From contig RFGF01000017.1 in assembly GCA_003695915.1 (NCBI GenBank), positions 1 to 64,000 on the forward strand: a stretch of 64,000 nucleotides of DNA, in the 5' to 3' direction. Position numbers and translations under genes: made by a program. The notes beneath the pieces are model-generated. The model was not told where the DNA came from. It did not search any database and saw only the letters and a list, made by a program, of their open reading frames with translations. This stretch comes from Nitrospirota bacterium (GTDB lineage Bacteria; Nitrospirota; Nitrospiria; Nitrospirales; UBA8639). Below are positions 44,732 to 48,737 of the stretch, piece after piece (positions within the stretch are counted from its first letter, which is position 1; the number at the start of each line of letters is the position of its first letter).

Positions 44732-45001
44732 TGGCGATTCGTTGCTGATACTCGTCGCGTTCATCGCACATATGGCATTACCGATGTTCTCCCGAAAAAC
44801 CGAAATTCATCGCGCATACTTATTCTCTTCGTTCGTTTTTGATGCGAATGATCTTGAAATGAACGGATTTTGTATTATTTGTTAATTTGAAATCCCGCTA
44901 CCGAACATCGCGCGGCCAATGCATGCGCCCTGGTTACCTGAACGCATGGGAGGGAAAAAGATTCGGCCGAATGCCGGAGCGAGAAAGGAGAACCGATTTC
45001 C

Positions 45002-46084
45002 ATGAAGCATCACGTCATCTTCGAGAATTGCGAGGACAACGCGGTTATTCGCCGCACCTACGAGAAATGCCTGGCCCGCCTCGAAACGCAACTCAAACGT
45101 CTCCCTGACGAGTCGCTCTTTCTTCACGGAACCATTGAGCGTCATCACTCCAAACCCCGCTATCGAGCCTCGTTGGTTCTCAACGTTCCTGGTCGCGCCC
45201 TGGCAGCCAAGGAAGAAGGGAAGGATGGGGAGCAGGTCGTACGCGAAGCCTTTGGCGAATTGGAGCGCCAAGTCAAAAAATACAAAGAATTCGTTCGCGC
45301 CGAGCCTATATGGAAACGCCAAGAGCGGCGCGCCGAAATGCGGAAAAAATTGAAAGAAGAACTCGCTCCGCTGGCAGAGCAAGAACGGCAATTGGCATGG
45401 GATGTGATCCTGCCGAACCTCGACGCCCTGTATAATTTTGTGCGACGCGAGATCGCGTATTATTGGGGAACGGGAGACATCGCAACGCCTAGGGAAATCC
45501 AACTCAAGGACATCCTCGACCGGATCATTGCGCGAGCAGCCCGTGAATTTTCGAAAAAACCGAGCATCGAGGTTCGCACTTGGCTTCTTCAGTTAGCCCG
45601 CGAAGAAATTCATAAAGAAGTCAATCGGCTGAAACGTGAACGCGAACTGCTGGTTCCCATTGAAGAAGATGTCCCGGAAGTGCCAGAAGATGAAGAATTG
45701 AAAACACTTGGTGATTGGATTTACGAATTCTACCAGCCGGACGAAGATCTCCGATTGGAGGACCTCGTCCCTGATCCCAAAGCCGTCACCCCGGAAGAAG
45801 TTGCCGAAAATCGCGATGTCCAACGATTCGTCAACCAAACGTTGGCCAAATTACCCAAAACCTGGCGCGATGCGTTCGTGCTGTATTATGTGGAAGAATT
45901 GTCCATTCCCGAGGTCGCTCATCTCTTAGGGCAAAGCGAAAAAGAAGTGGAGGAATCGATCGACCATGCGCGGGAATTCTTGCGCCAGACATTGGAACAG
46001 GCTCTGGCCACCAAGGAAGCCCGCGCGTCGCAACAGGGTGAACAGGCTTCGAGCCTGGAACCGGCTCATGCCGGTCCCTCGTAA
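45002..46084 (+). CDS. HPF/RaiA-like domain fused to sigma-70 factor regions
   Basis: A 360-residue protein with two parts not normally joined. Residues 1-105 resemble ribosome hibernation factors (HVIFENCEDNAVIRRTYEKC, FLHGTIERHHSKPRYRASLV, REAFGELERQVKKYKEFVR). Residues 130-225 look like sigma region 2 (LDALYNFVRREIAYYWGTGD, DILDRIIARAAREF, WLLQLAREEIHKEV). Residues 280-345 look like region 4 (TLAKLPKTWRDAFVLYYVEE, LSIPEVAHLLGQSEKEVEES). The tail is Gln/Ala/Ser-rich. A small protein with an anti-sigma zinc motif follows 54 bases later. Whether it binds ribosomes, polymerase or both cannot be decided from sequence. Confidence 0.8.
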   Translation: MKHHVIFENCEDNAVIRRTYEKCLARLETQLKRLPDESLFLHGTIERHHSKPRYRASLVLNVPGRALAAKEEGKDGEQVVREAFGELERQVKKYKEFVRAEPIWKRQERRAEMRKKLKEELAPLAEQERQLAWDVILPNLDALYNFVRREIAYYWGTGDIATPREIQLKDILDRIIARAAREFSKKPSIEVRTWLLQLAREEIHKEVNRLKRERELLVPIEEDVPEVPEDEELKTLGDWIYEFYQPDEDLRLEDLVPDPKAVTPEEVAENRDVQRFVNQTLAKLPKTWRDAFVLYYVEELSIPEVAHLLGQSEKEVEESIDHAREFLRQTLEQALATKEARASQQGEQASSLEPAHAGPS

Positions 46085-46138
46085 GCCTCGTCGTTGCATT
46101 CGCCTCATCGATAAAACCGGGAAAAGGAGCGAGAACGT

Positions 46139-46411
46139 ATGACTACGAAAAAACCAGCGACCAAAGCTATGACGTGCCGACAGGTCCTGGCCTTTTTGAA
46201 AAAGCCCGAGCGATGGCACCAAGTGACCCTACCCAAAGAAGCGCAGGCGCATGTCAAAACGTGTCGATCGTGCGCTCAGCGATACACCAGTCTTCGGGCC
46301 ACGCTTACGGTTTTCGGCACCCGTTCGAATGTGCGGACGCCTGAGGCGGTCCGTCGATATGCCGAAAAACGAGTCGCCCATCATACGCGCAAGCAGCAGA
46401 GCTCGACCTAA
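46139..46411 (+). CDS. small zinc anti-sigma-like protein
   Basis: A 90-residue basic protein starting with TCRQVLAFLKKPE and carrying AHVKTCRSCAQRY, which fits HX3CX2C, the zinc-binding core of ZAS anti-sigma domains. An N-terminal Cys supplies a possible fourth ligand. AAGGAG precedes ATG 46139. It sits directly behind the HPF-sigma gene, as anti-sigma genes usually sit behind their sigma factor. It has no membrane helix, so it would be a soluble, perhaps redox-sensitive, regulator. Confidence 0.7.
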   Translation: MTTKKPATKAMTCRQVLAFLKKPERWHQVTLPKEAQAHVKTCRSCAQRYTSLRATLTVFGTRSNVRTPEAVRRYAEKRVAHHTRKQQSST

Positions 46412-46670: not shown

Positions 46671-47063
46671 ATGGCCTTTTGTCGGCACTTGACCGCCTCT
46701 CGTCTTCGGCACATCCTTTCGTGCCTGTTCTTGACCTGGACCATTTTCATGCCAGCCATGCTCGGAGCTCATGCCGTCTTGATCGAATCGCAGCCTCCGC
46801 ACGGAGCAGCCTTGCGCCACCCACCGGCCACCATCACACTCCGGTTCAATGCGGCGCTCGAGCGCGTCATCACTCAAGTGTATCTGATGGACCGAAAACA
46901 GCATGAGATGCCTCTCGAACTCCTCGATGATCCCCATGCCAACCAAGTGATAGCCAGACTTCCCAAGCTCGAACCGGGAGTGTACACGATTCGTTACAAA
47001 GTCTTGGCTCGTGACGGGCACGTGACGGAAGGCACTATCCGCTTCACCGTCCTCCGTCTGTAA
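46671..47063 (+). CDS. copC: CopC-family copper-binding periplasmic protein
   Basis: A 130-residue exported protein of the CopC fold. The signal peptide (LSCLFLTWTIFMPAMLGA) is followed by HAVLIESQPP, placing the N-terminal Cu(II)-binding His at the mature start. Later motifs are TITLRFNAALE and LARDGHVTEGTIRFTV with the second His. The copD gene follows 15 bases downstream, as in copper uptake/resistance operons. Only the His-type, not a Met-rich, copper site is seen. Confidence 0.88.
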   Translation: MAFCRHLTASRLRHILSCLFLTWTIFMPAMLGAHAVLIESQPPHGAALRHPPATITLRFNAALERVITQVYLMDRKQHEMPLELLDDPHANQVIARLPKLEPGVYTIRYKVLARDGHVTEGTIRFTVLRL

Positions 47064-47078
47064 TAACGCTCCGTTGTC

Positions 47079-48737
47079 ATGACCGATCTGCTCGAATTTG
47101 TCGGCGGCCTGTTGGACGGACTCGGTCTGGTCGCGCTCGCGATCATGATCGGAGGTATCGGCTATACCCTGACAATTTTGCGCATCAGGTGCGGAGGACT
47201 TCCGTATCAGAATCGGCTCGGCGCGCTTGCTTTATCGTTCACATTTTACGGCGCATTGGCCTTGGGAGGGGTCAGGTTCCTGCAACTGCTTCTCAAACCA
47301 TTGGCCTTGGCTGATGCGACAAGCTTTTGGGCCTTGGAACGGTTCATCCGGACCCATGTGTTCCAGTTGAACGCTGTCAGCCTCGGCTTGATCTGTCTTC
47401 TGGCCGTTCAACTCGAACGAGCACGTCGTTCGCCGGCTCGTCGAGGAATCTGGTTGGGCATTCTGCTCACGTTGGCAGCTTTTCTCGTGAACGAAGCCGG
47501 TCTCAGTCATGCTTCGAGCCGCTTGGCTGACGGGACGGTTCTCATGGTCGGGACAATAGTGCACGTGCTGGGCGCGACCATTTGGGCCGGAGGCATTGTC
47601 CATCTCTTGCTGTCTTGGCACGCCTTGAAAAAGCATGAGGACGCAGCGACGTCAGTATGGCCCCAATTGGTCGCCCGTTTCTCTCCATTGGGGATCGTCA
47701 GCATGATGCTGGTGGTATCGGGTGGCAGCTACCTCGCATGGCAGTACGTCGGCGCATGGCATGGATTGCTGGGGACAGGCTACGGCAATATGCTGTTGGT
47801 CAAAATCGGCCTGTTCATTGGTATCATGGGGCTCGCAGCGCTCAATTTATTTGCTGGTCGCCGATGGGTTCGGACTGGTTCGACCTCATCCATGACCACG
47901 GCAGTGCCGATCTACATTCAAGTTGAAATTGTGCTGGCTATCGCCATGTTATTTTCTGCCTCCACCCTCACATCCTTTCCGCCCGCCGTCGATGTCTTGG
48001 AAGCCGCGGCGACACCGCAGGAAGTCTGGACGATGTTTTCCCCAAAACTGCCCCATCTAGCGGGGCCGGAACAGGTCATGATCGAAGCGCCGGAGCTCAC
48101 CGACCTGCGCACGGGCACAGTCGGCCGCAAGCCGGACATGAGCTGGGATCGCTTTAATCATAATGCGTCAGGGGTCATCGTGCTCATCCTCGCCGGTCTG
48201 GCCCTGCTCGACTGGTCGGGGCGCGTGACATGGGCACGCCATTGGCCGATGCTTTTTGTGGCGTTTTCGCTGCTGATCATTGTGTTTGCCAACCCTGACC
48301 ATTGGCCATTAGGACCGGCAAGTTTTTGGGAAAGTTTTCAGAGTACAGAAGTCGTCCAACATTGGCTGGCAGGTGGCGTGGTCTTCGGCCTTGGCTGGTT
48401 TGAATGGTGGGCGCGTCGATGCCAAGCGGCTTCCTCACATGTCCGTTTTGTCTTCCCCATCCTTTGCATCGCAGGGGGGATTATTCTACTCACGCATTCG
48501 CATAGCATCAACGAATTGAAAACCGAATTTCTGGTGCAAAGTACGCATGTCGCGATGGGATGGCTCGGTGTCCTGGCTGGCTGTGGCCGATGGATGGAAT
48601 TGCAACTCCCCCCGCCACAGGCGCGCATGGCCGGCTTGTTTTCCATCATCGCCATCATGCTCGTGGGGTGGATCTTGCTTTTTTACATCAATCCCGAACT
48701 TCCAGAACCCGTTGGCTCTGCCTCGATCGAGGGCTGA
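47079..48737 (+). CDS. copD: CopD-family copper transport membrane protein
   Basis: A 552-residue integral membrane protein with many hydrophobic segments. The CopD part includes VGTIVHVLGATIWAGGIVHL and SPLGIVSMMLVVSGGSYLAW, with conserved His. The C-terminal half adds further helices (HNASGVIVLILAGLALLDW, CIAGGIILLTHSHSINELK) that are longer than a minimal CopD. It is probably co-transcribed with copC, from which it would receive copper for import to the cytoplasm or to cuproenzymes. Confidence 0.82.
   Translation: MTDLLEFVGGLLDGLGLVALAIMIGGIGYTLTILRIRCGGLPYQNRLGALALSFTFYGALALGGVRFLQLLLKPLALADATSFWALERFIRTHVFQLNAVSLGLICLLAVQLERARRSPARRGIWLGILLTLAAFLVNEAGLSHASSRLADGTVLMVGTIVHVLGATIWAGGIVHLLLSWHALKKHEDAATSVWPQLVARFSPLGIVSMMLVVSGGSYLAWQYVGAWHGLLGTGYGNMLLVKIGLFIGIMGLAALNLFAGRRWVRTGSTSSMTTAVPIYIQVEIVLAIAMLFSASTLTSFPPAVDVLEAAATPQEVWTMFSPKLPHLAGPEQVMIEAPELTDLRTGTVGRKPDMSWDRFNHNASGVIVLILAGLALLDWSGRVTWARHWPMLFVAFSLLIIVFANPDHWPLGPASFWESFQSTEVVQHWLAGGVVFGLGWFEWWARRCQAASSHVRFVFPILCIAGGIILLTHSHSINELKTEFLVQSTHVAMGWLGVLAGCGRWMELQLPPPQARMAGLFSIIAIMLVGWILLFYINPELPEPVGSASIEG

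Follow-up and report, generated by a model that had tools for sequence, protein, structure and literature searches.

The fusion gene and the small gene behind it

The window analysed here, a stretch of 64,000 nucleotides of Nitrospirota DNA, carries two neighbouring genes. The first encodes a protein in which a domain of the ribosome hibernation factors (HPF/RaiA) is followed by a sigma-like module, and the second a small protein with a motif of the zinc anti-sigma (ZAS) type (Table 1). The fusion gene starts with ATG and is preceded by an AAGGAG-type site (44986-44991); the ZAS-like gene begins 54 bp 3' of it, with an AAGGAG site of its own (46124-46129). No sigma70-type promoter was found around the fusion gene in a promoter scan. 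A CTTGAAA sequence, which resembles the -35 element of sigma-32 (heat-shock), lies at 44853-44859, approximately 145 bp 5' of the start codon. CopC domain and CopD genes (46671-48737) follow directly 3' of the pair, in the same orientation.

Table 1. Features of the fusion gene and of the ZAS-like gene (positions in the window).
Feature	Position	Strand	Basis
HPF-sigma-like fusion gene, 360 aa	45002..46084	+	ORF, profiles, AF2, Foldseek
HPF/RaiA (S30AE) domain, residues 2-100	45005..45301	+	PF02482, AF2 (pLDDT mostly >90), Foldseek
Basic tail WKRxxRR behind the HPF domain, residues 104-110	45311..45331	+	Family conservation
Sigma-2-like domain, residues 126-216	45377..45649	+	TIGR02937, residue comparison, AF2 helices
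YEFYQPDE motif, residues 241-248, in the sigma2-sigma4 linker	45722..45745	+	Alignment; pLDDT <50
Sigma-4-like domain, residues 276-335	45827..46006	+	PF08281, PF22233
-35 recognition helix SEKEVEESIDHARE, net charge -4 (usually positive)	45935..45976	+	Residue and charge comparison
Small ZAS-like gene, 90 aa	46139..46411	+	C13, H38-x3-C42-x2-C45 motif

The original prediction placed an HPF/RaiA-like N-terminus and sigma-70 regions 2 and 4 in a single protein. Its first half was borne out: Pfam profile PF02482 (Ribosomal_S30AE) matched residues 7-96 (E 2.8e-7, 31.6 bits for a cut-off of 23.7), and this part of the AF2 model adopts the HPF fold, with HPFs of the PDB retrieved by Foldseek at a target TM of 0.79-0.84. 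In the second half, PF08281 (Sigma70_r4_2) on residues 279-327 (E 1.9e-8) and NCBIfam TIGR02937 (sigma70-ECF) on residues 139-330 (E 2.6e-15) both scored above their cut-offs and the model has helical domains, but Sigma70_r2 taken alone gave a weak Pfam match (E 0.12). The PhyR_sigma-like profile PF22233 fell slightly under its cut-off (E 8.5e-6), and was above it for the homologue of another Nitrospirota, the metagenome-assembled genome (MAG) J031 (locus L001).

The AF2 model, obtained with 19 homologues as input, has a mean pLDDT of 82. It predicts an HPF domain, a helix with the basic tail, and sigma-2-like and sigma-4-like helical domains, while linker residues 240-257 are disordered (pLDDT <50). 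For the sigma half, the best Foldseek matches in the PDB were closed, anti-sigma-bound forms, with SigW-RsiW and RpoE-NepR at 0.70, and a region 3.2-like stretch aligns to the sigma factor of PDB entry 6pfj. As the Pfam and NCBIfam profiles, the AF2 model and Foldseek agree, the HPF-sigma fusion is confirmed. An assembly error as its source is ruled out by the many independent fusions present in other genomes.

The prediction of a zinc anti-sigma partner fared less evenly. All four residues C13, H38, C42 and C45 are kept in the J031 homologue, at 47% overall identity, but the protein had no Pfam or PDB match, and with an NCBIfam anti-sigma model it reached no better than E 0.013. Its AF2 model, made from two input sequences, has a pLDDT of 54 and is too poor to use. 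We call this 90-aa protein a putative anti-sigma factor on the basis of its motif. The fusion gene and the ZAS-like gene form a conserved two-gene unit, which is the only convincing stretch common to the window and L001, the flanks being unrelated. No paralogue of the small gene was found in the window's genome, nor the gene itself in four other family-bearing genomes tested, so far confining it to these two Nitrospirota.

The family and its conserved residues

About 40 homologues were collected, mostly full fusions, from Proteobacteria and from J031, whose protein is 61% identical to that of the window. Scanning 84,980 genomes yielded 24 loci; in at least 18 of these, the window not counted, all or most of the fusion is present, and the reading frame is open in nearly all family copies. 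By profile searches of whole genomes, the fusion was present in 15 of 369 Gammaproteobacteria, 3 of 289 Alphaproteobacteria and 1 of 246 Nitrospirota, the last being the window's own genome, nearly always as one copy per genome. The pair had been proposed for a check across Nitrospirota; with one genome in 246 and one further MAG, it is not a trait of this phylum, and the remaining matches there are ordinary ECFs or short HPFs. A phage origin was rejected, since neither IMG/VR nor a set of 50,697 phage records gave a match. The window and L001 group together as a single clade of the tree (support 100/99), near a Calditrichota member (84/80) and separate from the proteobacterial clades. No published account of an HPF-sigma fusion was found in the literature searched, which left most subscription journals out of reach.

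Known HPFs bind the small ribosomal subunit and stop translation, and their helix 2 faces RNA. The fusion family shares their fold and the basic helix 2, where two alignment columns are R or K in 92% and 97% of members (n = 37). It differs from HPF, RaiA and YfiA by what follows the domain: a WKRxxRR tail and a sigma-like module, where those proteins have a short tail or the C-terminal domain of long HPFs. Tail positions are K or R in 97-100% of members (n = 37), R110 is invariant in the family alignment A1, and the N-terminal part has a net charge of about +10. The HPF half thus looks able to bind RNA, and ribosome binding is predicted. Since the window's genome also encodes two canonical HPFs, the fusion would be an additional factor. 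Ribosome anchoring would not be universal in the family, because three members with the YEFYQPDE motif have no HPF domain (L015:1900-2703, L017:1715-2548 and L024:5989-6636); a further one, L014, ends at a contig edge. Five standalone HPFs of 118-123 aa from one Nitrospirota family (L031, L032, L033, L034 and L035, at about 1500-1890 on the minus strand) have a basic KREHxYKxRRAEKKPRK tail, and are similar, also in this tail, to the N-terminal part of the fusion.

In the sigma-like half, residues expected to bind core polymerase and to read the -10 element are altered. Of 41 members, 40 have Asp in place of the conserved region 2.2 Gln, and region 2.4, Arg-rich in sigma factors, has a conserved Glu (R to E). 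An acidic -35 recognition helix was seen in a first comparison with ECFs of Nitrospira; this control group was narrow, and the comparison was repeated with 35 diverse ECFs from five genomes. The mean net charge of the helix was -1.52 in the family (n = 42) and -4 in the window, versus +2.74 in the ECFs (p 3e-13, a value that is only indicative because the compared rows are related). Two receiver-domain PhyRs included in the same comparison had +1 and -2. The whole sigma part of the family carries a net charge of about -24 (range -33 to -14), as compared with -6 to +11 for entire ECF proteins. In the gammaproteobacterial and tLST members, hardly any match to sigma profiles is left, and several family members match the PhyR_sigma-like or PhyR_sigma2 profiles at significant or near-significant levels.

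This half therefore looks like a sigma mimic, seemingly devoid of the residues with which promoter DNA is read. The precedent is PhyR, the sigma mimic and anti-anti-sigma factor of the alphaproteobacterial general stress response, whose sigma-like domain has degenerate promoter and RNA polymerase contacts and titrates NepR (PMC8103513; PMC4598750). The fusion is similar to PhyR in its sigma2-sigma4-like module, its degenerate DNA-contact residues, its acidic sigma part and its profile matches. It differs in that no receiver domain was matched by profile, the N-terminus being HPF/RaiA instead, in the QPD motif of its linker, in that no NepR-like gene was seen beside it, and in a range not confined to Alphaproteobacteria. 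With ECF and ZAS pairs such as SigW-RsiW and SigR-RsrA, it has in common the overall sigma fold and an HX3CX2C motif in the next gene; however, its DNA-reading residues are lost and its partner is not matched by Pfam or PDB profiles.

The QPD core of the linker motif is invariant in 42 members, most of which have the full form YEFYQPDE. This peptide had served for the scan, and invariance was rechecked on members found by profile and chosen without it: the flanks vary, and QPD is invariant. Such a short invariant motif within a disordered stretch suggests a putative docking peptide.

Stress-island neighbourhoods and orf11

Many relatives lie in proteostasis islands, together with genes for Hsp20, ClpG/ClpK, FtsH, HdeD, Trx and GroEL-DnaK. 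In Burkholderia anthina, the family gene is upstream of groES-groEL-dnaK and adjoins three Hsp20 genes, and in Shinella and Caulobacter it is flanked by a ClpG-like AAA gene and HdeD. Using tLST-type proteins as probes, and stretches from the same genomes as controls, at least one tLST-type neighbour was found at 17 of 37 family loci versus 2 of 17 control stretches (FtsH and Trx), and Hsp20 near 10 of 37 versus none of 17. The HPF-less member L017 adjoins rhomboid, ClpP and Hsp20 genes. In L014, from a Nitrospinota MAG, the QPD-motif sigma-like gene is followed 18 bp downstream by a gene of baeRF family 10 (eRF1-like; L014:584-1726), the type of protein to which the hibernation factor Balon belongs; two Hsp20 genes and one for a DegP-like protein come next. 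The family thereby gives further evidence for a joint organisation of hibernation factors (RaiA, Balon) and proteostasis genes. Within the 64-kb window itself, no such island neighbour (Hsp20, ClpG/ClpK, FtsH, HdeD or Trx) was found.

Judged by its sequence, orf11 of the mobile tLST/LHR islands, which confer heat and stress tolerance on E. coli, Klebsiella, Enterobacter and Acinetobacter is a diverged member of this family. It matches the family profile (A1) with E 6e-76, keeps a FEFYQPDD motif and a KRKARR tail, and lies between hdeD-GI and trx-GI. Apart from a weak sigma-4 match, it escapes detection by Pfam and NCBIfam; it differs from the window protein in that its HPF half goes undetected by Pfam and in having no ZAS-like neighbour. 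Orf11 is found on about 300 sequenced plasmids, most of them from Klebsiella, Enterobacter, Acinetobacter and E. coli; among 5,426 complete E. coli genomes, 152 carry it. In tblastn, a family member gave matches on 271 plasmids. In the literature it is 'hypothetical', described only as unlike proteins of known function, so that it now gains a domain-level identity and testable predictions.

Possible modes of action

We favour, with a probability of about 40%, a reading in which the fusion protein is a sigma mimic that is anchored to ribosomes and serves the stress response by docking an anti-sigma factor or RNA polymerase. Under stress, the HPF part would sit in the mRNA/tRNA channel of idle 30S or 70S ribosomes, and the sigma-like part would dock a protein that normally binds sigma factors. 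This protein would most likely be an anti-sigma factor, as for PhyR with NepR, and a stress sigma factor would be freed. For the Nitrospirota fusion, the likely partner would be the ZAS-like protein encoded next to it; in proteobacteria, where the gene is often within proteostasis islands, RNA polymerase may take this place, or an anti-sigma factor encoded on the chromosome. The outcome would be a coupling of ribosome idling to the transcriptional stress response.

Both folds, obtained by profile and by structure, are consistent with this mimic, as are the acidic recognition helix, the altered regions 2.2 and 2.4 and the net charge of -24. So are the PhyR profile matches, the anti-sigma-bound forms retrieved by Foldseek and the PhyR precedent (PMC8103513; PMC4598750). 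A stress role is suggested by tLST/LHR membership, chaperone neighbours, the Hsp20 excess and the Balon-like gene of L014, and in two Nitrospirota with different flanks the ZAS-like gene stays together with the fusion. Other observations go against it. Sigma folds and a region 3.2-like sequence are kept, so RNA polymerase binding or promoter use is possible; most members have no anti-sigma gene beside them; the window lies outside any proteostasis island; and three members are without an HPF domain. Moreover, a strong role is not what a published screen of single-gene deletions in E. coli suggests: orf11 did not figure there among the deletions that lowered resistance to heat or chlorine (PMC8407380).

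The fusion might instead be an accessory hibernation or protection factor, in which the sigma-derived part is a repurposed scaffold with no role in sigma switching, contacting the ribosome, RNA polymerase or a chaperone, for instance by bridging idle RNA polymerase and ribosomes. The conserved HPF domain with its basic tail, a sigma part unfit for promoters, a neighbourhood of chaperones, proteases and, in L014, a Balon-like hibernation factor, and the two canonical HPFs already in the genome, which make of the fusion an extra factor, all agree with this. HPF fusions to other modules are also known: in archaeal HibA, shown on ribosomes, an HPF/RaiA domain is fused to a CBS module (PMC13324472), although there the module is different and the order reversed, with CBS first. 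We nevertheless consider such a scaffold rather unlikely, in view of the ZAS-like partner in Nitrospirota and of standalone sigma-like members such as L017, whose existence implies an independent function for the sigma-like part.

Less probable again is a true sigma factor of the ECF type that responds to ribosome occupancy by way of its HPF domain and, in Nitrospirota, is also under the control of a zinc anti-sigma factor. The TIGR02937 and PF08281 matches above cut-offs, the stretch aligning to 6pfj, the adjacent HX3CX2C gene and the sigma-like genes noted in islands (PMC8290217; PMC10901736), which may themselves belong to this family, speak for it, but the acidic recognition helix is family-wide, regions 2.2 and 2.4 are altered, the sigma part is strongly acidic, and little similarity to sigma profiles is left in gammaproteobacterial and tLST members. 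The original prediction had linked ribosome state or redox stress to transcription, for example by parking a sigma factor on ribosomes. The neighbourhoods of the relatives favour a link of ribosome state and stress with transcription, while a redox-sensing role of the zinc protein stays speculative; parking of an active sigma is less likely than a PhyR-style mimic, because the promoter-reading residues are lost. The fusion and its zinc gene hold as a pair in two Nitrospirota, but the wider family, largely in proteostasis islands, is without such a partner. The gene might also be a remnant, once a sigma factor fused to HPF and now decaying, which mobile islands carry along and which is for the most part dispensable. 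This would fit orf11's absence from the heat and chlorine genes in the deletion screen (PMC8407380), its branch, among the longest of the tree, and its HPF half escaping Pfam, but is improbable given a QPD motif and a WKRxxRR tail conserved across phyla, frames open in nearly all copies, and mostly single copies in distant lineages, also outside islands.

If the ribosome-anchored mimic is right, ribosome hibernation and sigma control, two of the main stress arms of bacteria, would be physically linked in one protein. It is possible, if doubtful, that the family represents a new class of stress regulators, in which a domain binding idle ribosomes carries a sigma decoy and the number of idle ribosomes sets the titration of an anti-sigma factor (or of RNA polymerase), and that this is also what orf11 does.

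Six Sedimenticolaceae loci (L002-L007) share a tail, PLPEELxAEILEKIMP, in the C-terminal 30 residues of the fusion. The tail is missing from the window and L001, where the small zinc gene occurs instead.
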